A stretch of DNA of 33,671 bases from the NCBI GenBank assembly GCA_021777795.1, contig JAJYDD010000004.1, forward strand, positions 1-33,671, read 5' to 3'. Source of the DNA: Pseudomonadota bacterium (lineage in GTDB: Bacteria > Pseudomonadota > Alphaproteobacteria > Rhizobiales > Beijerinckiaceae). Made by a program: the position numbers and the translations under genes. Below, piece after piece: positions 5,964 through 33,671 of the stretch (position 1 is the stretch's first letter; every line of letters begins with the position of its first letter). Under the pieces are notes generated by a model, which saw nothing but the letters and a program-made list of their open reading frames with translations, was not told where the DNA came from and did not search any database.

Positions 5964-6314
5964 ATGCTGCAACGCCTCGACATCCAGCCGAACGAGTTGG
6001 AAGCGCACGCTGTCCAGGCGGCGGCAATGCTGCGTTCGATGTCCAATACATGGCGCCTGCTAGTGCTTTGCAATCTCGTCAAGGGCGAGAAATCGGTGGG
6101 CGACTTGCAACGCATCGTCGGCATCAGTCAATCTGCGCTCTCGCAACACTTGGCGACGTTGCGGGCCAAAAAGCTGGTCGCGATCCGCCGCGACGCGCAG
6201 ACGATCTATTATCGCTTGAACGGCCCGGAAGTCGCAGCGATTCTGACGACGCTCTATGCGCTGTACTGCGGGCCGAGTCCGCTGATCTGCGGTCTCGACG
6301 CCGACGGAATCTGA
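5964..6314 (+). CDS. ArsR-family HTH regulator, SqrR/BigR/YgaV-like
   Basis: ORF 5910-6314, ATG at 5964; winged helix VGISQSALSQHLATLRAKKLVAIRRDAQTIYYRL; Cys36 (VLCNLVKGE) and Cys102 (LYALYCG), 66 residues apart. Confidence 0.9.
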   Translation: MLQRLDIQPNELEAHAVQAAAMLRSMSNTWRLLVLCNLVKGEKSVGDLQRIVGISQSALSQHLATLRAKKLVAIRRDAQTIYYRLNGPEVAAILTTLYALYCGPSPLICGLDADGI

Positions 6315-6315
6315 G

Positions 6316-6352
6316 GCGCCCGCCAACCCGTTGGCGGCGCGTCCTTCCTTTC
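6316..6352. terminator. Hairpin between convergent ArsR and rhodanese genes (possible bidirectional terminator)
   Basis: CGCCAA-cccg-TTGGCG perfect stem extended by flanking GCGCC/GGCGC, followed by gtccttcctttc. Confidence 0.5.
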
Positions 6353-6686
6353 AGGCAAGCTCGCCGCCCTCGCGGCTCCAACCCATGACGCCGCCGCGAT
6401 AGTGTCGCACGTCATTGCGACCGCTGGCGCGAACCCGCGCGAGGGCGCTGGCGGAGCGCGCGCCGGAACGGCAGATCAGCGCTACGGGCCGATCGCTCGG
6501 CAGTTGCGCCGGATCGAAACGCGATAGCGGCAGGTTCAACGAGCCGGGAACGCGGCCTGCGTTAAACTCCTGCGGTTCGCGCACGTCGACCAACACGCAG
6601 GCCCCCGCCCGCAACGCCGCCGCGAGTTCGCTATAAGCGATCTCGTCGTTCGCGCCGCCGCCCTTGAAGACGTCAAACAAACCCAT
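6351..6686 (-). CDS. Single-domain rhodanese-like protein
   Basis: 111 aa; VLVDVREPQEFNAGRVPGSLNLPL and active-site loop CRSGARS. Confidence 0.93.
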   Translation of the reverse strand: MGLFDVFKGGGANDEIAYSELAAALRAGACVLVDVREPQEFNAGRVPGSLNLPLSRFDPAQLPSDRPVALICRSGARSASALARVRASGRNDVRHYRGGVMGWSREGGELA

Positions 6687-6701
6687 ATCCTCGCTCCTGT
6701 T

Positions 6702-7067
6702 TCAAACTTGCGATTTGGCGTCAAGGAACTGCGTCGCCGCGCCGAGCGCGTGGCTGGCGTACATCGCCGCCGGCCCTGCGCCCATGTAGATGGCCATGCC
6801 GAGGGTCTCCAGAATCTCCTCGCGCGTCGCGCCCCGTTCGACGGCGGCCTTGGCGTGAAACGCAATGCAATCGTCGCAACGCACCGCTACCGAGATCGCG
6901 AGCGCGATAAGCTCCTTGGTCTTCGTATCCAGCGCGCCTGGCTTCAGCGCAGCTTGCGCGATGGCGCCGAAGCCCTTCATCACGTCGCTGGCGCCGCCGC
7001 GCAGGTTTCTCAGTTCGCCGCTCAGCATCGTCGCGAGGTCGGGCCAGTCGGTTGTTTGCATGATCAA
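6702..7067 (-). CDS. Carboxymuconolactone decarboxylase/AhpD-like protein
   Basis: 121 aa; CDDCIAFHAKAAVERGATREEILETLGMAIYMG (CxxC-x3-H AhpD motif). Confidence 0.92.
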   Translation of the reverse strand: MIMQTTDWPDLATMLSGELRNLRGGASDVMKGFGAIAQAALKPGALDTKTKELIALAISVAVRCDDCIAFHAKAAVERGATREEILETLGMAIYMGAGPAAMYASHALGAATQFLDAKSQV

Positions 7068-10000
7068 GACTCCTTAGTGGACGTTGACATGGATTTCTCG
7101 TCGTCCCGCAGTACGACGTAGATGGCGGGGATGACGAGCAGGGTCAGGGCGGTCGAGGAGGCGAGGCCGAACACCAGGGAGATCGCCAAGCCCTGGAAGA
7201 TCGGATCGGTGAGAATAAAGGCCGCGCCGATCATCGCGGCGGCTGCGGTCAACACGATGGGTTTGAAGCGGGTCGCTCCGGCCTCGATCAGCGCCGGCCG
7301 CAGCGCGGCGCCCAGGGCGCGGCGGGAGCGGATGAAATCAACGAGCAGGATCGAGTTGCGCACGATGATGCCGGCCAGCGCGATGAAGCCGATCATCGAG
7401 GTTGCCGTGAACGGCGCGCCCAAGACCCAATGGCCGAGCACGATGCCGATCAGCGTCAACGGCACCGGCGTCAGGACAACCAAAGGAAGCGTGAACGAAC
7501 CGAACTGCGCCACCACGAGCAGATAAATGCCGAGCAACGCCACCCCGAACGCCGCGCCCATGTCGCGGAACGTCACATAGGTCACCTCCCATTCGCCGTC
7601 CCACAGCAGCGTCGGCCGGGATTCGTCGAGCGGCTGGCCGTGCAGACTGATGACGGGCTTGCCGAGCTTACCCCAATCCATTTTGTCGATCGCCGCATCG
7701 ACGGCGAGCATGCCGTAAATCGGCGCCTCAAAGCGCCCGGCGAGATCGCCGGTCACCATCTCGGCATAGCGGCCGTTGTGACGGAAGATCGGATAGGAAC
7801 TCATTTCGTGCGTTACCTTGACGACATCGCCGAGTTCGACATTGGCGCCCTGTCGCGCTGTGCCGCCGGCCGCCAGCGGGGTCGACAGCAGCTTTTCATT
7901 CAGCGTAAGTTCGGAGCGGGGCAGGGCGACATTGATGAGGATAGGTTTCAGCCCGGCGCCGCGCTGAGAATAACCAACCTTGGTTCCTGCGATTAACGCC
8001 CCAAGCGTATCATAGACCGCCTGTTCCTCGACGCCATGAAACTCCAGCGCCTCCTGATCGATGGAGAAGCGCAGCCGTTCGGCGGGAACGCCGAAACTGT
8101 CGTCCACGTCGACGATGAAGTCGACGCTCTCGAAAGCCTTGCGCACCTTGGCCGCCACCGCCCGCCGCGTCTTGGCGTCGGGCCCATAGATCTCGGCGAG
8201 CTGCGTCGCCAGCACCGGCGGCCCCGGCGGAACCTCGACGATCTTCAGCGACGAATGCGCCGGCAAGGGCAGGCCCGCCAGCCGCTTGCGAATGTCGAGC
8301 GCGATGGCGTGGCTTTCGCGCTTGCGATCGCCCTTGGGCGTCAGGTTGATCGAGAGGTCACCCATCTGCGGTTGGTTGCGCTGGTAATAGTGCCGCACGA
8401 GGCCGTTGAAGTTGAACGGCGCCGATGTCCCAGAATAGGCCTGGATCGACACAAGCTCCGGCAGCGAGGCGATGCGATCGGCCGCCGCTTTGAGCACGCG
8501 GTCAGTCTCCTCCACCGTCGCGCCCATCGGCAGGTCGAGCATGACCTGCAATTCGGACTTGTTGTCGAAGGGCAGCAGCTTCACCGTCACACTCTCGGTG
8601 AAGAACAAGGCGCAGACGGCGAGCGTCGCCGCGCCGACCGTCAGCAGGAACGCCCACGACCTCCAGCGACCCTTCAACAAAGGCGTCGCCACGCGGATAT
8701 ATAAGCGCCCCAACGCGCCGACGTGATGGAAATGCGCGTCCGCGCCGCTGGACTTGCGCTCGAAATGGCGTCCGGCGATCTTCAGCAGCAGCCAAGGCGT
8801 GATAATGACGGCGACGAAGAACGAGAACAGCATCGCCGTCGAGGCGTTGGCGGGAATCGGACTCATATAAGGGCCCATCAGCCCGCTAACGAACATCATC
8901 GGCAGCAGCGCGGCGACGATGGCCAGAGTCGCGACGATGGTGGGATTGCCGACTTCGGCGACGCCCTCGATCGCGGTCTCCACCAACCCTCGCTTGCCGC
9001 GCATTTCCCAATGGCGCACGATATTCTCGACCACGACGATCGCGTCGTCGACGAGAATGCCGATGGAGAAGATCAGCGCGAACAAGCTGACGCGGTTGAT
9101 CGTGTAGCCCATCATCCAAGAGGCGAACAGGGTCAGCAGGATCGTCGTCGGCACGATGATGAAGGTGACGACGCCCTCGCGCCAACCGATCGTCAGCGCG
9201 ATCAGCAGCACGATTGAGCCGGTAGCGAGCGCCAGATGAAACAGCAGTTCGTTGGCCTTCTCGTTGGCGGTGGCGCCATAATCGCGCGTCACCGCCACTT
9301 CGAGATTGGGGGGAATGATGCGGCCTCTGACGCTCGCTATGCGGTGCAACGCGGCGGCCGCGACTGTCACAGCGTTTTCGCCTTTGCGCTTGGCGACAGC
9401 AAGGCTGACCGCCGGACGGCGTGTGAGCTTGCCGTCTGCGCCGCGCGTCATCGTCCAGGCGCGATGGTCCAGCTCAGCGGACCCAACGACCGTCTTGGCG
9501 ACGTCCTTGACATAGACGGGGCGACCGTCGCGCGTAGTGATGAGCAGCAACCCAATGTCGGGAATCCCCTGTAGAGTCTGACCGACTACGACAGGCATGG
9601 ACTTCCCGTCCTGCCGGAACGCGCCGGCGAGGAAGGCGCGGTTGGCGTTCTGGACCTTGCTGACGAGTTGTTCCAGCGTCACGCCGTAAAGCGAAAGCTT
9701 CTCGGGATCGGGCTCGACGCGGATCTCGGAGGGCGAACCGCCGACGATGAAAGTCTCGCCGACGCCGTTGACCTTTGTGACCTCGTGCTGCAACTCCTCG
9801 GCGACCTGATAAAGACCGTTGTCGTTCCACTCAGCCGCCTTGTCGGCCTTGGCCGAGAGCGTCAGCACCAGGATCGGCACATCGTTGATGCCGCGGCCGA
9901 CGATGAGCGGCTGAGGTATGCCTTTGGGCAGACGGTCCAATGCGGCGCGAATCTTCTCATGGATGCGCAGCACCGCGGTGTCCTCGTCCGTGCCGACGAA

Positions 10001-10300
10001 GAAGCGCGCGGTGACGAGGACCTGATCGTCGGCGGTCTGCGAATAGACATGCTCGACGCCGTCAATGCCCTTGACGATGTCTTCCAGCGGCCGGGTGACG
10101 AGTTCGACCGCTTCGCTCGCCTTGTAGCCATTGGCGGCGACCATGATGTCGACCATCGGCACGCTGATCTGCGGCTCCTCCTCGCGCGGCAGCGAGACGG
10201 TCGCGATGGCGCCGGCGACCAGGGCCGCGATCAAGAAAAGCGGCGTCAGCGGCGATTGAATGAAGAGCCGCGTGAGAGTTCCAGACAGGCCCAGTTTCAT
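7064..10300 (-). CDS. Efflux RND transporter permease subunit
   Basis: 1078 aa; AcrB/CusA-like TM blocks; GILVDDAIVVVENIVRH, EEEPQISVPMVDI; overlaps the next gene by ATGA. Confidence 0.95.
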   Translation of the reverse strand: MKLGLSGTLTRLFIQSPLTPLFLIAALVAGAIATVSLPREEEPQISVPMVDIMVAANGYKASEAVELVTRPLEDIVKGIDGVEHVYSQTADDQVLVTARFFVGTDEDTAVLRIHEKIRAALDRLPKGIPQPLIVGRGINDVPILVLTLSAKADKAAEWNDNGLYQVAEELQHEVTKVNGVGETFIVGGSPSEIRVEPDPEKLSLYGVTLEQLVSKVQNANRAFLAGAFRQDGKSMPVVVGQTLQGIPDIGLLLITTRDGRPVYVKDVAKTVVGSAELDHRAWTMTRGADGKLTRRPAVSLAVAKRKGENAVTVAAAALHRIASVRGRIIPPNLEVAVTRDYGATANEKANELLFHLALATGSIVLLIALTIGWREGVVTFIIVPTTILLTLFASWMMGYTINRVSLFALIFSIGILVDDAIVVVENIVRHWEMRGKRGLVETAIEGVAEVGNPTIVATLAIVAALLPMMFVSGLMGPYMSPIPANASTAMLFSFFVAVIITPWLLLKIAGRHFERKSSGADAHFHHVGALGRLYIRVATPLLKGRWRSWAFLLTVGAATLAVCALFFTESVTVKLLPFDNKSELQVMLDLPMGATVEETDRVLKAAADRIASLPELVSIQAYSGTSAPFNFNGLVRHYYQRNQPQMGDLSINLTPKGDRKRESHAIALDIRKRLAGLPLPAHSSLKIVEVPPGPPVLATQLAEIYGPDAKTRRAVAAKVRKAFESVDFIVDVDDSFGVPAERLRFSIDQEALEFHGVEEQAVYDTLGALIAGTKVGYSQRGAGLKPILINVALPRSELTLNEKLLSTPLAAGGTARQGANVELGDVVKVTHEMSSYPIFRHNGRYAEMVTGDLAGRFEAPIYGMLAVDAAIDKMDWGKLGKPVISLHGQPLDESRPTLLWDGEWEVTYVTFRDMGAAFGVALLGIYLLVVAQFGSFTLPLVVLTPVPLTLIGIVLGHWVLGAPFTATSMIGFIALAGIIVRNSILLVDFIRSRRALGAALRPALIEAGATRFKPIVLTAAAAMIGAAFILTDPIFQGLAISLVFGLASSTALTLLVIPAIYVVLRDDEKSMSTSTKES

Positions 10301-11268
10301 GGCGCAACGATCCTGTCGCCGTCGGCGAGGCCGGAGAGGATTTCGATGGTTTTGACGCCCTTGTCGTCATGCGTCTCGCCCGGTTGCACGACAACTTCGT
10401 CGCCGTCGGCGAGTTTGACGTAATTGACGCCGGCGCGACGATAGACATAGTTGGCGGGGACTTCGATCGTGCGGCGTTTTCCGGTGTCGATATAGACGCG
10501 CGTGCGCTCGCCGACGAAATAATCGCCGAGCCCCGAGACGTCGACGTCGGCGATTACGCGCCCGCCTTGGATTTCGGGGTAGACGATACGCACGCGGCCT
10601 TCGCGCGTCGCCCCCTGCTCAGTTTCGGAAAGGCCGCGCGCGCCAATCAATACCCTATCTCCGGCGCGCAGGAACTGGGCGTGGCGCTCGGGAAGTTGCA
10701 AGCGAAGGACGTATTTGTCCTCAGCCAAGGTCGCGATGGTTTCTCCAGGCATCACGACGCGGCCGAGCGAGACCGGCACGCTCAGCACGCGTCCGGCGCC
10801 GGGCGCGAGCACCGCGCCTTCCGACGCCTGCTGCGCAATGACCTCGCGATCGCCCTTCATCGCCGCCAGATTGCGCTCGGCGACGTCGAGATTGGTTTTG
10901 GCTTGATCCAACTGCGTCTGGGTGGAGACGCCGCGGCGGGCGAGGGCGGCGATGCGGTCGTAATCGGTCTTGGCCTGGTCGCGCGTCGCCTGCTGCGAAG
11001 CGATCCGCGAATCGAGCGCCTGCATCTGCAAAGCGAGCTTCTCGTCGGTAACTTCGGCGATGGTCTGACCGGCCTTGACGTCATCGCCCTCCCTGACCGT
11101 CAGCGAGGCGATGGTGCCGCCGATGCGGGCGCGCGCAACAAGCTGATGGACAGGCTCCACGGTGGCGATCACCGCCTTGCGGTCGTTGACATAGGCCTCG
11201 CGCACGACGAGCGGCGCCGCGACCGCGGGCGTGGCGGCGAGAAGAAGGAGAAGCGCTAGGCGTCGCAT
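10297..11268 (-). CDS. Efflux RND transporter periplasmic adaptor (membrane fusion) subunit
   Basis: 323 aa; signal peptide, lipoyl-like/coiled-coil arrangement (GGTIASLTVREGDDVKAGQTIAEV); 4-nt overlap with permease. Confidence 0.93.
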   Translation of the reverse strand: MRRLALLLLLAATPAVAAPLVVREAYVNDRKAVIATVEPVHQLVARARIGGTIASLTVREGDDVKAGQTIAEVTDEKLALQMQALDSRIASQQATRDQAKTDYDRIAALARRGVSTQTQLDQAKTNLDVAERNLAAMKGDREVIAQQASEGAVLAPGAGRVLSVPVSLGRVVMPGETIATLAEDKYVLRLQLPERHAQFLRAGDRVLIGARGLSETEQGATREGRVRIVYPEIQGGRVIADVDVSGLGDYFVGERTRVYIDTGKRRTIEVPANYVYRRAGVNYVKLADGDEVVVQPGETHDDKGVKTIEILSGLADGDRIVAP

Positions 11269-11302
11269 GAGGGCTCCCGAAGTGCGGACTTGACGTATAT
11301 AT

Positions 11303-11328
11303 CACGCTATGCTAATTCAGCAAGCGTG
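11303..11328. promoter_or_regulatory. Imperfect palindrome in divergent promoter region (candidate ArsR operator)
   Basis: CACGCT(A)TGCT-aattc-AGCAAGCGTG between adaptor start (11268) and ArsR start (11346); overlaps promoter-like TTGACG-N17-TAATTC (+) and TTGCTG-N16-TATATA (-). Confidence 0.55.
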
Positions 11329-11345
11329 AAAGTAAGGTTGTAAAA

Positions 11346-11687
11346 ATGGGGCGCTTGAAGGTGAGGCGCTTGCAAGCCTCCGCCGCCGAGGCGGAATGCC
11401 TGATGAAGGCGATGGCCTCGCGCCCGCGCCTGATGATCTTGTGCGAACTGCTCGTCGGCGAACGCACGGTGACCGAACTTCAAGGGGCCGTAGGGTTGGC
11501 GATGTCGGCGGTGTCGCAGCATCTGGCGAAGTTGCGCGAGGCTGAGATTGTCGCGACGCGGCGCGAGTCGCAGACGATCTATTATTCGTTGTCGAGCGAA
11601 CCGGCGCGACGGCTGTTGTCGTCGCTCTACGAAATATATTGCGGCCCCGCGTCGGCTGCGAACAGACAACAAAGGAGAAAGTCATGA
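11346..11687 (+). CDS. ArsR-family HTH regulator, SqrR/BigR/YgaV-like (second paralogue)
   Basis: 113 aa; MSAVSQHLAKLREAEIVATRRESQTIYYSL; Cys33 (ILCELLVGER) and Cys99 (LYEIYCG), 66 residues apart. Confidence 0.93.
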   Translation: MGRLKVRRLQASAAEAECLMKAMASRPRLMILCELLVGERTVTELQGAVGLAMSAVSQHLAKLREAEIVATRRESQTIYYSLSSEPARRLLSSLYEIYCGPASAANRQQRRKS

Positions 11688-11887
11688 CATTGGATCGCGC
11701 TGTTCTCGCCTTCGCTGGCTTCGTGGTATTGCTCAGTCTGGCGCTGGCGCATCTGTTCTCGCCCTGGTGGTTGCTACTGGCGGCTTTCGCCGGCCTCAAC
11801 ATGATCCAGGCCAGTTTCACGGGGTTCTGCCCCGCCGCGATGATTTTCAAAGCCTTTGGCGTGAAAGCGGGCGTGTGCTTCAGATAA
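11684..11887 (+). CDS. DUF2892 (YgaP-transmembrane-like) small membrane protein
   Basis: ATG at 11684 overlaps ArsR stop (ATGA); 67 aa, two TM helices, FTGFCPAAMIFKAFGVKAG. Confidence 0.85.
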   Translation: MTLDRAVLAFAGFVVLLSLALAHLFSPWWLLLAAFAGLNMIQASFTGFCPAAMIFKAFGVKAGVCFR

Positions 11888-12792
11888 GCCAAAGTCATGA
11901 TGTCCGGGAGCTTCGCGAATACCTTCGGAAGGAGCGTGGCGCGTCGGCATGTGTGATGGACTCGCGCTGCTCGGCTCCGGCGGCTGCGCGGCCTGTCCCC
12001 CTGCGAATCTATCGAGGCGGCGTCCCCTCTTCGCATCTTGCGACTGATACAAGCGCCGTGGCGGTGTCCGTCAGCGCGCTCACGTAAACTGGCGGCGTAT
12101 GCCTGCGGGGGCAATGTTAAATTGGGTTGCGCCGCAGTGTTCGCTTTCGCGGGCATATTCGGCAGGGCGCTTGGGTCGTCAGCAGCCAAGCTCGTCGACG
12201 GGCCTCGTTTGTTCGGCGTCTGGATGGTGTTCATTGGCTGGCGATGCGGCGCAGGCCAAGGCGGTGGGATCGATAGGTAGTGCGGTTCCCTATGGAAGCG
12301 GCGGCGAGTTTGATCGGATCGGGGGGAGGCGTAGGAATATATCCGGTTTCACCGTAATTGGAGAAGGCCTCCTCGTCCTGTGTGCGCTTCTCGTCGCCTC
12401 GTCGATGCCGATGAGTTTCGTGGTTGGCTCGTCGCTGGTGTAGGTGGGCGCCTTCGGCGCAGCCACCGGCTTCAGTTACGCGCTGTCGCGCCCCGGTGAT
12501 CTCAGGAAGGCGACTTTGTTCGTAGTCGACGGCATTCCCGGCCGCTTCGTCCGCGTAGAGTTCGGCCGGCGCCTGGAGCCGCGCAAATACGCGATACGCA
12601 TGAGCTTGGCGTTGGCTGTTGTTGACGTCAGGCTCTTCGCTGTCGCTCGCGGGCCGCTCCCTGTCTTCGTGTTCGCTGGTTGCGCACGACGCCTCATCTT
12701 CGCGCCCGCGATTGTAACCCGCGGGCCCGGCGTGCCTCTTCAAAACAGGCTCTAAAGCGTGGGCTCCCAGGGTCTTCAAGGACGGGGTGACG

Positions 12793-14079
12793 TCAGGCGT
12801 CGGCCTTCACGCTTTTCAACTTGTCGATGCCGAGCGCGCTAAGCGCCAGCGTCTCATAGAACGGTTCGCTTTCGCCCTTGCGCATCTTGCGGATGAAATA
12901 TTTTTCGAAGCCGATCTTGGCCGCATGCACCCATTTGCCTGACGACGACCAATTGACGTTGCGCGGCGGAATCTGCGGCTGCGCGACGAAGGCGATGCCG
13001 GAATCGCCAAAGTCGGCCAGACACACAGCATTCCACGTGCCTTGAAACGTCGGTTTGCCGCCGCGCAGAATCTGCCCGAGATTGCGCGCGGTAGCCGTGA
13101 CCATCGATTCGATCATGAAGCCTGTCTTCGGTACGCCGCAGGGCACCGGCGAAGGACCAACCGGCGGAATGGCGACGCAAACGCCGACCGCGAAAATATT
13201 GGGGTAAGCAGGATTTTGCTGATGCTTGTCGACGATGACGAAGCCGCGCGGATTGACGAGGCCCTCGATGCCCCGCAAGGGCGCAATGCCGCGAAACGCC
13301 GGCAGCATCATGGAAAAGCTGAAAGGCAGCTCCTTCGTGGCCTTCACAGCGCCGTCGTCCGCGATCTCCTCGACGGTCATCTTGCCTGGTTCGACTTTCT
13401 TGACCCGCGTGCTCGTCATCCATTTGATGTGACGCTCGCGCAGTTCGCTTTCAAGCAAGCCTTTGGTGTCGCCGACGCCGTCGAGTCCGAGATGGCCGAC
13501 ATAGGGTTCCGATGTAACGAAAGTCATCGGCACCCGGTCGCGGATCTTGCGTCGACGCAGTTCCGTTTCCAGGATGAAAGTAAATTCGTAGGCCGGCCCA
13601 AAGCAGGAAGCGCCTTGCGCGGCGCCGATGATGACCGGGCCGGGATTCTTGCAGAAGGCTTCGAAATTGACGGCCGCTTTTTCGGCGTGGTCGATGTGAC
13701 AGATGGAATTGGTGTAGCCCTCGGGACCGAAACCCTCGATCTCATCGAAGGCGAGTTCGGGGCCGGTCGCGATGATGAGATAATCGTATTTGATGATTGT
13801 GCCGTCGGCGAGCGCCAGAAGGTTATCTTTGGCGGAGAGTTTGACGACAGCGCTTGGCTTGAAGGCAATGCCCTTACGCGCCAACGTCGGCGCCAAATCG
13901 ATCTCAAGGTTTTCGCGCGTGCGCCAGCCGACGGGAACCCACGGATTGGAAGGAACGAAATGGTAGACAGGATCCTTGGTGACGACGGTGAGGCTGTCCT
14001 CCCGCCGCATTTGTTCCTTCATCTCGTAGGCCATCACAGCGCCGCTGAGTCCGGCGCCCATAATCACGATCTGGGCCAT
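12793..14079 (-). CDS. sqr: Sulfide:quinone oxidoreductase
   Basis: 428 aa FAD/NAD(P)-binding; Cys127 (NSICHIDHAEKA), Cys159 (GASCFGPAYEF), Cys353 (AVCLADFG) match the SQR catalytic triad; VPKTGFMIESM. Confidence 0.9.
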   Translation of the reverse strand: MAQIVIMGAGLSGAVMAYEMKEQMRREDSLTVVTKDPVYHFVPSNPWVPVGWRTRENLEIDLAPTLARKGIAFKPSAVVKLSAKDNLLALADGTIIKYDYLIIATGPELAFDEIEGFGPEGYTNSICHIDHAEKAAVNFEAFCKNPGPVIIGAAQGASCFGPAYEFTFILETELRRRKIRDRVPMTFVTSEPYVGHLGLDGVGDTKGLLESELRERHIKWMTSTRVKKVEPGKMTVEEIADDGAVKATKELPFSFSMMLPAFRGIAPLRGIEGLVNPRGFVIVDKHQQNPAYPNIFAVGVCVAIPPVGPSPVPCGVPKTGFMIESMVTATARNLGQILRGGKPTFQGTWNAVCLADFGDSGIAFVAQPQIPPRNVNWSSSGKWVHAAKIGFEKYFIRKMRKGESEPFYETLALSALGIDKLKSVKADA

Positions 14080-19806: not shown

Positions 19807-19880
19807 TGGAGCGGGCGAAGGGAATCGAACCCTCGTATGAAGCTTGGGAAGCTTCCGTTCTACCATTGAACTACGCCCGC
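19807..19880 (-). tRNA. tRNA-Gly (anticodon CCC)
   Basis: Cloverleaf GCGGGCG TA GTTC AATGGTA GAAC G GAAGC TTCCCAA GCTTC ATACG AGGG TTCGATT CCCT CGCCCGC T CCA; anticodon loop TTCCCAA. Confidence 0.93.
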
Positions 19881-25335: not shown

Positions 25336-28300
25336 GTGAGCATCCCCGCGCCGCCGGCGAGGCCGCTGTTCGGTCACGCGCTGTCGCTCGACCGCCATGC
25401 GCCGCTGGCCAGCCTCAACGGGCTGGCCAAACAACTGGGGCCGATCTTCCAGCTCGACATGATGGGCGCGAAGGTGGTGTTCGTCTCCGGCGCCAAACTC
25501 GCCAGCGAACTCTGGGACGAGACGCGCTTCGACAAGGCGGTGCGCGGGCCGCTGGCGCGGGTGCGCGCCATCGGCGGCGACGGGCTGTTCACCGCCAAGA
25601 CGCGCGAACCCAACTGGGCCAAGGCGCACAACATCTTGCTCGCGCCCTTCGGCGGCCGTGCGATGCAATCCTACCATGCCGCGATGGTCGACATTGCCTT
25701 GCAACTGGTCAAGAAGTGGGAGCGGCTCAACCCGGACGAGGAGATCAACGTCGTCCACGACATGACGGCGCTGACGCTCGACACCATCGGCCTCTGTGGT
25801 TTCGATTACCGCTTCAATTCGTTCTACCGGCGCGACTATCACCCTTTCGTCGAAGCTCTGGTGCGCTCGCTGGAGACGGTGATGCTGCAACGCGGCCTGC
25901 CGCTGGAAGGCCTCGCCATGCACGGGCGCCTGCGGGCGATGAAAAAAGACCTCGCTTTCATGAACGGCATCGTCGATGCACTCGTCAAAGAGCGGCGCGA
26001 GGCGGGGCTAAGCGACAAGAAAGACCTGCTCGACGCCATGCTGACCGGCGTCGACAAACAGACCGGAACGCAACTCGACGATCTCAATATTCGTTATCAG
26101 ATCAACACGTTTCTTATCGCCGGGCATGAGACGACGAGCGGTCTGTTGTCCTACGCGATCTACGCGCTGCTGAAGAACCCCGAGGTTCTCGCCAAGGCGC
26201 GCGCAGAGGTTGACCGCGTGTTCGGCGGCGATCTCGACGCCGCGCCGAGCTACGCGCAAGTGACGCAGCTTTCCTTTGTCAACCAAATCCTAAAGGAGAG
26301 CCTGCGGTTGTGGCCGCCGGCGCCGGCGGTCGGGCTCTATCCTTACAAAGACGAGGTGATCGGCGGCTTCCCGATCCCCAAGGGCTCGACGATCAATGTG
26401 CTGATTGGTCCGCTGCAACGCGATCCCGAGGTCTGGGGGCCGCGCGCCGACGTGTTCGATCCCGAGAATTTCGCACCGCAAGTCGAGGCCAAGCGTCCGG
26501 CCTGGGCGTTCAAGCCGTTCGGCAACGGCCAGCGCGCCTGCATCGGGCGCGGCTTCGCCCTGCACGAGGCGGCGCTGGCGCTAGGGTTGATCCTGCAACG
26601 TTTCGATCTCATCGACGTGCATGGCTATCAATTGAAGCTGAAGGAGACGCTGACCGTCAAGCCCGAGGGCTTTCGCATCAAGGCGCGGCTGCGCACCGAT
26701 CGGCCGCCGCCGGCCGCCGCCGCCGTCGCCGCGCCCGCCGCGACCGTCGAGGCGCCCTTGGCGCGGCCTGCCCACAACACGCCGTTGCTGGTGCTCTATG
26801 GCTCCAATCTCGGCACGGCGGAGGAATTTGCGCATCGGCTGGCCGAGACCGCCGACATCAACGGTTTCGTCGCCACGCTCGGCGCGCTCGACGAGTATGT
26901 CGGGCCGCCGCCCAACCAAGGCGGGCTCGTCATATTCTGCGCCTCCTACAACGGCGCGCCGCCCGACAACGCCAGCAAATATGTCGAATGGCTGCGCAAG
27001 GGCGCGGCGGCGGACGCCTTCGCCGGCGTCAAATATGTCGTGTTCGGCTGCGGCAACAGCGAATGGAGCGCGACCTATCAGAGCGTGCCGCGCTTCATCG
27101 ACGAGCGCATCGCGGCGCTCGGCGGCGAGCGCATCGCGCCGCGCGGCGAGGGCAATGCGCGCGAGGACATCGACGGGCACTATGAGGCGTGGTTCGCCAG
27201 CCTGCGCCCCGCCGCCGCGCGCGCGTTCGCGCTGCAAGCCGGGCTCGACCGCGAAACCCGCAACGAACCGCTCTATCGCGTTGAGACCCTGGGGCCGCAG
27301 ATCGACAACGCAGCGGCGGCGACGTCCGGCGGCGAGCCGATGCGCGTCCTCGAAAACCGCGAGCTGCTCAACGCGACTGACCGCTCGACCCGCCATATCG
27401 AAATCGCGCTGCCTGAAGGGCGCACCTATCGCCCCGGCGATCATCTGGCCGTCGCGCCGCGCAACGAGGCGGGGCTGGTCGCAGCGGTGGCGCAGTGTTT
27501 CGGCGTGACGCCGGAGAGCGCGATCAAGCTGGACGCCGCGCCCGGCCGTCGGCCGCTGCTGCCGGTCGGCGTCCCCGTCTCTGTCGGCAAGCTGTTGACC
27601 GATTTCGTCGAGCTTCAGAGCGTGGCGACGCGCAAGCAGGTGGAGACGCTGGCCGAGCACACGCGCTGCCCGGTGACAAAGCCGAAATTGCAGGCGCTGG
27701 CGGGCGAGGGCGCCTATCGCGCCGAGGTCTATGGCAAGCGGCTTTCGGTGTTTGATCTCCTGCGCCTGCATCCCGCCTGCGAACTGCCGTTCGCGCTCTA
27801 TCTGGAGATGCTGGCGCCGTTGCAGCCGCGCTATTACTCGATCTCGTCATCGCCGTTGGCGGATGGAGAGCGGGTCAGCGTGACGGTCGGCGTCGTCGCC
27901 GGCGAGGCGCGCTCGGGGCTTGGGCTTTATCGCGGCGCCGCCTCCAACTATTTGGCCGCGCGGCGGCCCGGCGATGTCATCCACGCCGCCGTGCGCGAGA
28001 CCAAGGCGGGCTTCCGCCTGCCCGACGGTCTCATGACGCCGCTGGTGATGATCGGCCCCGGCACCGGGCTCGCGCCGTTTCGCGCTTTCCTGCGCGAGCG
28101 CGCGGCGCTGCGCGATAACGGCGCGACGCTGGGGCCTGCGATGCTGTTCTTCGGCTGCCGAAGGCGGCACGAGGATTTCCTCTACGCCGAGGAGCTGCAG
28201 GGCTACGCGGCGCAGGGGCTGGTCGATCTGCATGTCGCCTTCTCGCGCGCGCCCGACGCGCCCCGGACTTACGTGCAAGACCTCATGCGGCGCGAGGCGG

Positions 28301-28500
28301 ATGCGCTGTGGCTGCTGCTGGAAGCGGGCGCCGTCGTCTATGTCTGCGGCGACGGCGCGCGCATGGAGCCTGACGTGAAGCGCGCGCTGATTGAGATTCA
28401 CAGCGCGAAGACAGGCGCCCCGACGCCAGCCAGCGAAGCTTGGATGGCGGAGCTTGGCGCCGCCGGGCGCTATGCGCTCGACGTTTGGTCGGGCGGTTGA
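25336..28500 (+). CDS. Bifunctional cytochrome P450/NADPH-P450 reductase (CYP102/P450-BM3-type fusion)
   Basis: 1054 aa, GTG start; AGHETTSGLL I-helix, FGNGQRACIGRGFALHEA heme loop, flavodoxin segment LYGSNLGTAEEFA, FAD/NADPH domains (RYYSISSSP, MIGPGTGLAPFRAFLRER). Confidence 0.95.
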   Translation: MSIPAPPARPLFGHALSLDRHAPLASLNGLAKQLGPIFQLDMMGAKVVFVSGAKLASELWDETRFDKAVRGPLARVRAIGGDGLFTAKTREPNWAKAHNILLAPFGGRAMQSYHAAMVDIALQLVKKWERLNPDEEINVVHDMTALTLDTIGLCGFDYRFNSFYRRDYHPFVEALVRSLETVMLQRGLPLEGLAMHGRLRAMKKDLAFMNGIVDALVKERREAGLSDKKDLLDAMLTGVDKQTGTQLDDLNIRYQINTFLIAGHETTSGLLSYAIYALLKNPEVLAKARAEVDRVFGGDLDAAPSYAQVTQLSFVNQILKESLRLWPPAPAVGLYPYKDEVIGGFPIPKGSTINVLIGPLQRDPEVWGPRADVFDPENFAPQVEAKRPAWAFKPFGNGQRACIGRGFALHEAALALGLILQRFDLIDVHGYQLKLKETLTVKPEGFRIKARLRTDRPPPAAAAVAAPAATVEAPLARPAHNTPLLVLYGSNLGTAEEFAHRLAETADINGFVATLGALDEYVGPPPNQGGLVIFCASYNGAPPDNASKYVEWLRKGAAADAFAGVKYVVFGCGNSEWSATYQSVPRFIDERIAALGGERIAPRGEGNAREDIDGHYEAWFASLRPAAARAFALQAGLDRETRNEPLYRVETLGPQIDNAAAATSGGEPMRVLENRELLNATDRSTRHIEIALPEGRTYRPGDHLAVAPRNEAGLVAAVAQCFGVTPESAIKLDAAPGRRPLLPVGVPVSVGKLLTDFVELQSVATRKQVETLAEHTRCPVTKPKLQALAGEGAYRAEVYGKRLSVFDLLRLHPACELPFALYLEMLAPLQPRYYSISSSPLADGERVSVTVGVVAGEARSGLGLYRGAASNYLAARRPGDVIHAAVRETKAGFRLPDGLMTPLVMIGPGTGLAPFRAFLRERAALRDNGATLGPAMLFFGCRRRHEDFLYAEELQGYAAQGLVDLHVAFSRAPDAPRTYVQDLMRREADALWLLLEAGAVVYVCGDGARMEPDVKRALIEIHSAKTGAPTPASEAWMAELGAAGRYALDVWSGG

Positions 28501-30743: not shown

Positions 30744-33671
30744 CTACTCCGCTGGCGACGGCAGCGCCGCATGTCCGTCGCGTTGCTCCTCGCGCGGCTT
30801 CTCCTCGCGGGCCTTTTCCTCGCGCGGCGCCAACAGCCATTTGAACAGCCGCCACGTCAGCCGCCCGATGTCGTCGAGCACCGTGAACACCGCCGGCACG
30901 AACACCAGGCTCAGCAGCGTCGACACCACCAGGCCGCCGATCACCGCAATCGCCATCGGCGAGCGGAAGCCGCCGCCGTCGCCGACGCCCGCCGCCGAGG
31001 GCAACATGCCCGCCGCCATCGCGATCGTCGTCATCACGATCGGCCGCGCGCGCTTGCGGCCGGCCTCGACCAAGGCTTCCAGACGCGGCGTCCCCTCCGC
31101 GATCGCTTCAACGGCGAAATCGACCAGCATGATCGCGTTCTTGGTGACGATGCCCATCAGCATCAGGATGCCGATGACGACCGGCATAGACATCGCCTTG
31201 TGGGTGATGAGCAAGGCGATGATCGAGCCGCCGATGGAGAGCGGCAGCGAGATCAGAATGGTGATCGGTTGCAGGAAGCTGCCGAACAGCAGCACCAGCA
31301 GGCCGTAGACCATCATCAACCCCGCGCCCATCGCCTCGGCGAAGGATTGGAACACTTCGCTCATGATCTCGACGTCGCCGGTCTCCTTGATCTCGACGCC
31401 CGGCGGCAGATGTTTCGCCATCGGCAAAGCGCGGATCGCCGCCACCGCCGCGCCCAGCGGCGCATCGCCGCGCAAATCCGCCTCGATTGTGACGCGGCGC
31501 GAGCGGTCGTAGCGGTTGATCGCGGTCGGGCCGTGGCCCATCTCGAAATCGGCGACGGCGGCCAGCGGCGTCGTGCCGCCGCCGCCCGTCGGCACGCGCA
31601 GGTTCTCCAGCACGCCGATTCGCCCGCGCGCCGCCTCGTCCAACTCGACACGGATCGGGATCAGCCGGCCGTCGACCTTGAACTTGGCGAGATTGGCGTC
31701 GATGTCGCCAAGCGTGGCGACGCGGATCGTCGTCGACAAAGCCTCCGTCGAGACGCCGAGGTCGGCCGCCACCTGCCGGCGCGGCTCGATCTGCAATTCC
31801 GGCCGGTCCAACTCGGCGGTGGAGATCGGGTTCTCCAGGATGGGAATTGTGCGCATCTCGCTGGCGAGCTGGTTGGCCGTGTTGTTGATCTCTTTCATAT
31901 CGTGGCCGGCGACGATGAGTTGCAGGTCGCGCTGGCCGTTGTCCTTCATGAACCAGAAGCGCAGATCCGGGATATCGGCCATGAAGCCGGAGATGCGGGT
32001 TTGCAGGTCCTTCTGCGTCGCCTCGCGCTTGGATTTGTGGACGAAATTGATGACGAAGGTCGCCTTGCGCGGCTCGGAATCGCCGCCCAGGATCTGGCCG
32101 CCATAGACGAGCACCGAGCGCACCTCCGGCATCGCCTTCAACTTGGCCGAGATTTCGCGGGTCACGCGGTCGGTGTCGTCGAGCCGGGAGCCCGGCGGCA
32201 GTTCCACCGCGAGCAGCGCGCGCGCCTGATCGTCGGCGGGGATGAAGCCGGAAGGCAGCAGTTGCGTCGACCACAGCGAGCCCGCGAAGATCAGCGCGCC
32301 GACGAACAGCGTCGCCCAGCGCCAGCGCACGGAGCCGCGCACGAGGCGCGTGTAGAAGCGCATGATCGCGCCGTCCTCGGCAGGCTCGGCATGGCGCGGC
32401 GTGCGCATGAAATAGGCCGCCATCACCGGCGTCACGAAACGCGCCACGCCCAGCGAGAACATGACGGCGACGGCGACGGTGAGGCCGAACTGGCGGAAAT
32501 ATTGGCCGGCGATGCCGCCCATGAAGCTGACCGGGGCGAAGATCGCCGCGATCGACAGCGAAATCGCGATGACGGCGAGGCCGATCTCGTCGGCGGCCTC
32601 AAGGGCTGCGCGATAGGCGGTTTTGCCCATCCGCATGTGGCGCACGATGTTCTCGATCTCGACGATGGCGTCATCGACGAGAATGCCCGTCACCAGCGTC
32701 AGCGCCAGCAGGCTGACCATATTGAGCGAGAAGCCGACGGCGTCCATCGCCCAGAAGGTCGGCAGCACCGACAGCGGCAGAGCCATCGCGGTGACGACGG
32801 TGGCGCGGAAATCGCGCAGGAAGATGAACACAACGATGATCGCCAGCGCCGCGCCCTCGATCAGCGTCTCCATCGTCGAATGGTAGCTGCCCAACTCGGC
32901 CTGGATGCGGCTATCAACCTGGGTGAACTTCACTTCCGGATGGCGCTTCTCGATCTCGGCGAGCTTGCGGGTGATGTCGCGGTCGACCGTCACGTCGCTC
33001 GCGCCCTTGGCGCGGGTGACGCCGAAGGCGACGATGGGTTGGTCGAACAGCCGCGTGAAGGTGCGCGGCTCCTGCGCTGTGTCGGAGACGGTGGCGAGTT
33101 CGTCGAGCCGCACGCGCCGGCCGCCGGGAAGGGCGATTGGCAGCGCCTTCAACTGGGCGAGCTTGTTGGCGCCGGCCAGCGTGCGGATCGCCTGTTCCTG
33201 GCCGGCGATCTCGCCGCGCCCGCCGCCGAGATCGACGTTGTCTTGCCGCACCTGCTCGTTGACCTGCTCGGCGGTGACGCCGAGCGCCAGCAGCTTCTCA
33301 GGGTCGAGCGAGACGCGGATTTCGCGATCGACGCCGCCATAGCGCGAGACGTCGCCGACGCCCTTCAGCGCCTGCAAATCGCGCGCGACGGTGTCGTCGA
33401 TGAACCAGGACAGTTGCTCGACCGTCATGCCCGGCGCCGAGGCGGCGTAGGTGACGATCGGCAGGCCCTCGATATTGACGCGGTTGATGATCGGCTCGTC
33501 GATGGTGCGCGGCAGGTCGGAACGAATTTTCGCGATCTGGTCCTTCACGTCGTTGAGCGCGCGGTCGATGTCGGTGGAGCCGACATGGAACTGGATGATC
33601 GTCTGCGAGGAGCCATCGCTGATTTGGCTGGCGATGTGCCAAACGCCGTTGAGGCTGGCGACCGCGTCCTC
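30744..33671 (-). CDS. Efflux RND transporter permease subunit, 5' end truncated by window end
   Basis: Open frame continues to base 33671 (EDAVASLNGVWHIASQISDGSSQTIIQFHVGSTDIDRALNDVKDQIAKIR...); GILVDDAIVEIENIVRHM; AcrB/HAE-1-like. Confidence 0.95.
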   Translation of the reverse strand, partial: EDAVASLNGVWHIASQISDGSSQTIIQFHVGSTDIDRALNDVKDQIAKIRSDLPRTIDEPIINRVNIEGLPIVTYAASAPGMTVEQLSWFIDDTVARDLQALKGVGDVSRYGGVDREIRVSLDPEKLLALGVTAEQVNEQVRQDNVDLGGGRGEIAGQEQAIRTLAGANKLAQLKALPIALPGGRRVRLDELATVSDTAQEPRTFTRLFDQPIVAFGVTRAKGASDVTVDRDITRKLAEIEKRHPEVKFTQVDSRIQAELGSYHSTMETLIEGAALAIIVVFIFLRDFRATVVTAMALPLSVLPTFWAMDAVGFSLNMVSLLALTLVTGILVDDAIVEIENIVRHMRMGKTAYRAALEAADEIGLAVIAISLSIAAIFAPVSFMGGIAGQYFRQFGLTVAVAVMFSLGVARFVTPVMAAYFMRTPRHAEPAEDGAIMRFYTRLVRGSVRWRWATLFVGALIFAGSLWSTQLLPSGFIPADDQARALLAVELPPGSRLDDTDRVTREISAKLKAMPEVRSVLVYGGQILGGDSEPRKATFVINFVHKSKREATQKDLQTRISGFMADIPDLRFWFMKDNGQRDLQLIVAGHDMKEINNTANQLASEMRTIPILENPISTAELDRPELQIEPRRQVAADLGVSTEALSTTIRVATLGDIDANLAKFKVDGRLIPIRVELDEAARGRIGVLENLRVPTGGGGTTPLAAVADFEMGHGPTAINRYDRSRRVTIEADLRGDAPLGAAVAAIRALPMAKHLPPGVEIKETGDVEIMSEVFQSFAEAMGAGLMMVYGLLVLLFGSFLQPITILISLPLSIGGSIIALLITHKAMSMPVVIGILMLMGIVTKNAIMLVDFAVEAIAEGTPRLEALVEAGRKRARPIVMTTIAMAAGMLPSAAGVGDGGGFRSPMAIAVIGGLVVSTLLSLVFVPAVFTVLDDIGRLTWRLFKWLLAPREEKAREEKPREEQRDGHAALPSPAE

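Follow-up and report, generated by a model that had tools for sequence, protein, structure and literature searches.

A Cys-pair ArsR regulator and an RND efflux pump in a probable sulfide-response locus of a Beijerinckiaceae bacterium

The window analysed here, a stretch of 33,671 nucleotides from a Beijerinckiaceae bacterium, carries an operon for an RND efflux pump that lies between two ArsR genes. The locus is real and conserved, and it is well explained as a response to sulfide or sulfane sulfur. Its gene content, the Cys pair, the subgroup to which the regulator belongs, a conserved intergenic site and a recurrent linkage with sulfide:quinone oxidoreductase (SQR) and DUF2892 genes can all be read directly from the window and its relatives. 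The general association has already been published: according to the accessible part of a 2025 study of Hyphomicrobium sHdrR and SoxR (PMC12423496), genes for ArsR proteins that keep both cysteines and respond to sulfane sulfur have RND efflux, sqr, rhodanese, pdo and TauE genes close by, and sulfur transport is proposed for such neighbourhoods. Since RND genes near Cys-pair ArsR were noted there, the window locus adds a member to an association that had already been described. How bacteria dispose of the persulfides and polysulfides that arise from sulfide oxidation is poorly known, and the literature searched contained neither a paper testing such a pump nor an RND pump demonstrated to carry sulfur species.

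The features of the locus are collected in Table 1. Pfam and NCBIfam models identify the products of the minus-strand operon as MFP, RND permease, AhpD/CMD and rhodanese, both flanking genes as ArsR, and the small gene that follows arsR2 as a YgaP-like transmembrane (DUF2892) protein. The order of the operon and the presence of an ArsR gene on each side agree with the first-pass annotation of this DNA, as does a 15-nt gap between the AhpD-like and rhodanese genes. That annotation also placed 4-nt overlaps at the first two junctions; the one between adaptor and permease stands, and the one between permease and AhpD-like protein exists only with a TTG start. The ATG at 7061, with AAGGAG 8 nt upstream, is better placed and leaves a 2-nt gap after the RND gene. 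No outer-membrane factor is encoded in the window, as had been stated, and matches to the OEP family of such factors lie on other contigs of the same genome. Newly recognised parts of the locus are the DUF2892 gene, which overlaps arsR2, the decayed remains of a TauE/SafE gene and the gene for a type I SQR. The genome assembly (4.4 Mb, 624 contigs) is about 80% complete, so that the failure to find dsrA and DsrE2 in it shows nothing. Because a genome of the same genus includes an exact match to the RND locus of Roseiarcus fermentans DSM 24875 (locus L010 lies within L043), we take the window to come from a Roseiarcus-like member of Hyphomicrobiales. Elsewhere in the window, a long ORF (25336-28500) reads, from its sequence only, like a self-sufficient cytochrome P450-reductase fusion of the CYP102 type, and Rfam places a tRNA gene at 19810-19880 on the minus strand.

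Table 1. Features of the pump operon and its flanks, in positions of the window.
Feature	Position	Strand	Remarks
arsR1, Cys-pair ArsR (C36/C102)	5964..6314	+	convergent with pump operon
single-domain rhodanese	6351..6686	-	active-site loop C72-RSGARS
AhpD/carboxymuconolactone-decarboxylase-like protein, CxxC (C64/C67)	6702..7067	-	likely ATG start at 7061
RND permease, distinct subfamily	7064..10300	-	Arg at AcrB K940 position, DD pair kept
RND periplasmic adaptor (MFP)	10297..11268	-	TIGR01730 above cut-off; 4-nt overlap with permease
operator-like site, conserved	11287..11324		spans face-to-face arsR2 and mfp promoters
arsR2, Cys-pair ArsR (C33/C99)	11346..11687	+	divergent from pump operon
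DUF2892/YgaP-like transmembrane protein (C49, C65)	11684..11887	+	ATGA overlap with arsR2
TauE/SafE (sulfite exporter) gene, decayed	11899..12653	+	pieces in three frames
type I sulfide:quinone oxidoreductase (SQR), by similarity	12793..14079	-	match to A. ferrooxidans SQR structure 3sz0, E = 2e-143

The SQR gene is oriented opposite to arsR2. In alignment with the A. ferrooxidans enzyme, C127, C159 and C353 of its product fall on the catalytic cysteines and, judged by these residues and by similarity to the A. ferrooxidans and A. aeolicus enzymes, the protein is a type I SQR. Its nearest relatives are found in genomes G006 (80%, downstream of arsR1) and G026 (79%), the latter adjoining a sulfite-reductase-like, DsrC/E/F-like cluster. 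Between the DUF2892 and SQR genes sits the decayed TauE/SafE gene, the pieces of which are collinear with intact TauE genes that adjoin Cys-pair ArsR genes in other genomes. None of the 80 RND loci surveyed contains TauE, which was therefore rejected as a gene conserved alongside the pump.

Both ArsR proteins have the pair of cysteines reported for them in the first-pass annotation, 66 residues apart in each. The ILC.L..GE context described for both holds for ArsR2; in ArsR1 the sequence is VLC.L..GE. In alignment the four cysteines share the α2 and α5 positions with the cysteines of SqrR, BigR and HlyU. Compared with known structures, both proteins match HlyU, NolR, YgaV, BigR and SqrR at about 1e-16 to 1e-21, and SmtB only at 1e-10 to 1e-6. 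The proposed kinship with SqrR, BigR and YgaV was borne out by phylogeny: in a tree of 94 rows, with these three, HlyU, NolR and E. coli ArsR as references, both proteins group with HlyU, NolR, YgaV, BigR and SqrR (98/87), and E. coli ArsR as well as two further ArsR from the window's genome fall outside this group. The inner forks of the tree are weak and the order within the group is poorly resolved. ArsR2 belongs to a 40-row clade (87/83) of ArsR from in or near this RND context, which includes none of the characterised references, and ArsR1 to a separate 6-row set (98/95), implying that the two are old paralogues rather than products of a recent duplication. Their scores of 84.4 and 83.7 bits against the BigR equivalog NF040642 lie below the curated 155-bit cut-off and, on this sequence evidence, both are kin of BigR and not BigR itself. 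Membership of the group alone proves nothing about sensing, since NolR belongs to it without a Cys pair. Among ArsR adjoining related RND genes, 68 of 70 keep both cysteines. SqrR, YgaV, SoxR and others are known to work by tetrasulfide sensing (PMC9774250; accessible part of PMC12423496), and we infer that ArsR2 is likewise a sensor of persulfide.

The intergenic regions between arsR2 and mfp can be aligned across loci, and read TTGCTAATTTAG-N6-CTAATATATNTGTCAAG in the clearest members. Within the conserved 38 bp of the window we recognise plausible promoter boxes for arsR2 (TTGACG, 11290-11295; TAATTC, 11313-11318) and, on the opposite strand, for mfp (TTGCTG, 11323-11318; TATATA, 11301-11296). 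These -35 and -10 boxes were assigned by eye and are absent from the matches of a promoter consensus scan, so that the promoter reading draws on conservation instead. A weight matrix built from 11 other loci, with the window left out, scores 32.0 at the site, compared with 7.9 at the next best place in the window and 9.0 at most on 20 random (Markov) sequences. In most ArsR2-type loci outside the training set the profile matches immediately before mfp, and it has no such placement in loci with a different ArsR arrangement; a scan of the whole window gave no further copies before arsR1 or SQR. Because the site includes the promoters, its conservation alone is no proof of repressor binding, but a TTAG-N6-CTAA dyad between the boxes suggests that a repressor may bind there. 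The SqrR box ATTC-N8-GAAT, which appears in the literature together with the tetrasulfide in YgaV (PMC9774250), is not evident by eye in the aligned intergenic site, where a different site is conserved.

How widely are such pumps linked to sulfur genes? The neighbourhood survey that the first-pass annotation proposed was carried out as a contig scan of genomes, which gave 80 RND relatives, 64-81% identical to the window RND, 53 of them well flanked (at least 3 kb on both sides). Among these 53 loci, ArsR is present in 43, DUF2892 in 47 and SQR in 28; all three occur together in 25, at least one in 49 and none in 4, and AhpD/CMD (13) and rhodanese (14) are less regular. An RND pump had been regarded as an unusual output of such regulators. 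An ArsR neighbour is instead the rule in this clade of RND pumps, the supposed rarity of the pairing is rejected, and the likely targets listed in the accessible part of PMC12423496 already include RND pumps. Within 1.5 kb on either side, ArsR or DUF2892 accompanies 22 of 28 RND orthologues, and neither ArsR nor DUF2892 nor SQR was found at any of 30 loci of a control RND from the same genome. The control is a second RND permease (30744-33548, in this reading truncated at the end of the window), the relatives of which lack sulfur genes. This result, taken with the retention of both cysteines in nearly all of the adjoining ArsR, argues that the pairing of RND and Cys-pair ArsR is more than chance. 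Type I SQR is found in 15 of 28 RND-positive relatives versus 1 of 32 RND-negative ones, and of the 79 Cys-pair-type ArsR matches in the 60 relatives, 22 are no more than 5 kb from this RND.

Relatives of the pump occur in named organisms. The plasmid locus of Paracoccus denitrificans PD1222 contains a persulfide-dioxygenase-like MBL gene, YeeE and DUF442 genes and an ArsR gene, and that of Methylocella tundrae contains SQR, DUF302 and cytochrome bd; linkage of RND and sulfur genes was confirmed on an annotated plasmid of Azospirillum. A Shinella plasmid copy has no such linkage and adjoins TetR and metal genes. Among more distant RND relatives (37-46%) linkage varies, about half of the 15 loci inspected being without such genes. 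Cytochrome bd genes are present in six RND loci, and Crp/FNR-like regulators are encoded near some (L043, 9297-9920; L038, 3142-3867). Gene linkage supports the view that the pump belongs to a sulfide-handling neighbourhood, and its recurrence in many bacteria suggests that the pump helps them cope with sulfide.

The best explanation, which we consider probable, is that this is a defence locus against sulfide and sulfane sulfur under the control of ArsR2. SQR would convert sulfide to persulfide or polysulfide. Bound to the 38-bp site, dimers of reduced ArsR2 would cover both divergent promoters and hold down the arsR2-DUF2892 and MFP-RND-AhpD-rhodanese units. When sulfane sulfur rises, added sulfur would bridge C33 and C99, ArsR2 would leave the DNA and both units would be expressed; repression by ArsR2 and induction by sulfide are expected on this model. 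Rhodanese, the CxxC AhpD-like protein and the DUF2892 protein would move or reduce sulfane sulfur, and MFP-RND, with an outer-membrane channel encoded elsewhere, would clear from the periplasm a product of sulfide oxidation or of sulfane-sulfur stress.

The nature of the permease bears on this last step. Its AlphaFold model (pLDDT 81, pTM 0.77) has TM-scores of about 0.8 to AcrB and AcrD, and the predicted fold is AcrB-like. A CusA-type (HME) assignment was rejected, given DD rather than DA in TM4, 23% identity and a score far below the cut-off of the CusA/CzcA model. In an alignment at only about 22% identity, the positions of AcrB D407/D408, R971 and T978 are kept and that of K940 is Arg in 81 of 81 sequences. 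The AcrB-like fold and the conserved DD proton-relay pair, Arg and Thr would equally suit an ordinary multidrug or solvent pump that by chance has come under a sulfur-responsive repressor as part of a general response to stress, and MarR-controlled drug pumps are reportedly induced by sulfane sulfur in other bacteria (accessible part of PMC8614764). We nevertheless think this unlikely. Identity is about 21-23% to AcrB, MdtB, MdtC and CusA alike, the Arg substitution is invariant, and the places of many pocket aromatics are taken by polar or charged residues, a hint only, the alignment being uncertain at such divergence. A general drug pump would also not be expected to show so strong and wide a linkage with SQR and DUF2892. 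That the predicted pump exports a sulfur species is plausible, and such a species is our best, if tentative, guess at its substrate.

The first-pass annotation had placed the pump under two ArsR proteins. If so, ArsR1 and ArsR2 would both bind the operator between arsR2 and mfp, much like the SoxR and sHdrR proteins of Hyphomicrobium, which have targets in common; in H. denitrificans both bind a common region (PMC10451225). Two Cys-pair ArsR are encoded beside RND also in Roseiarcus fermentans (L180), a sister genome (L178) and Methylocella tundrae (L210), but the second one varies, being of the ArsR1 type in the window and L178, SqrR-like in R. fermentans and of the ArsR2 type in M. tundrae. 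These second ArsR belong to separate branches of the family, which gives the impression of repeated recruitment. In the window, arsR1 converges on the 3' end of the operon and its promoter lacks the conserved site. The closest ArsR1 (83%) is encoded on a different contig from the pump, beside DmsC-like, DsrE2 and TusA genes. Among the relatives of ArsR1, that in genome G007 adjoins genes for DsrE2, TusA and a DmsC-like anchor, which we read as SoeC-like; in G057 the neighbours encode a sulfur transporter, DsrE2 and TusA, and in G011 and G055 an HdrB/HdrC-like and lipoate-protein-like cluster makes for an sHdr-like context. Dual control therefore appears improbable; rather than directly repressing the pump alongside ArsR2, ArsR1 more likely regulates other sulfur genes or acts as an auxiliary regulator.

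CusA-type RND pumps are metal exporters, and family-level ArsR and RND annotation would also fit metal or metalloid sensing with metal export, but we give this reading very little credence: neither ArsR has the α3N CxC motif or the α5 His site, both match persulfide-sensor structures best, the TM4 pair is AcrB-like, no metal genes lie nearby, and metal sensing was rejected on the missing motifs together with the tree.

Returning to a sulfide-defence locus under ArsR2, a bolder and more speculative extension is that the pump represents a widespread, distinct RND subfamily dedicated to export of sulfane sulfur (persulfide, polysulfide or a related anion), which would form the effluent arm of SQR-based detoxification under a dedicated Cys-pair ArsR clade acting through a conserved shared operator. 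In PMC12423496 the survey comprises one general sentence and a supplementary table, and the accessible main text contains no operator, RND subfamily analysis or pump test. From that one-line remark the present survey derives a defined target, made up of a single RND subfamily, a single regulator clade and a single operator.

With AcrB-type (HAE-1) pumps the RND shares its fold and the DD pair, and differs in its low identity (about 22%), the Arg in place of K940, other pocket residues and the lack of a linked outer-membrane factor. The SqrR-sqr system of Rhodobacter capsulatus and the bigR operon of Xylella and Agrobacterium are alike in setting a Cys-pair ArsR over sulfide-oxidation genes, and have SQR, rhodanese and DUF2892-type partners in common with the window; in contrast to both, ArsR2 is encoded divergently from an MFP-RND pump and its site does not match ATTC-N8-GAAT. 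The E. coli ygaVP genes are similar in that an ArsR is followed by a YgaP-type protein, which combines a rhodanese with a transmembrane domain, whereas in the window the transmembrane part (DUF2892) and the rhodanese each have a gene of their own, and a pump has been added.
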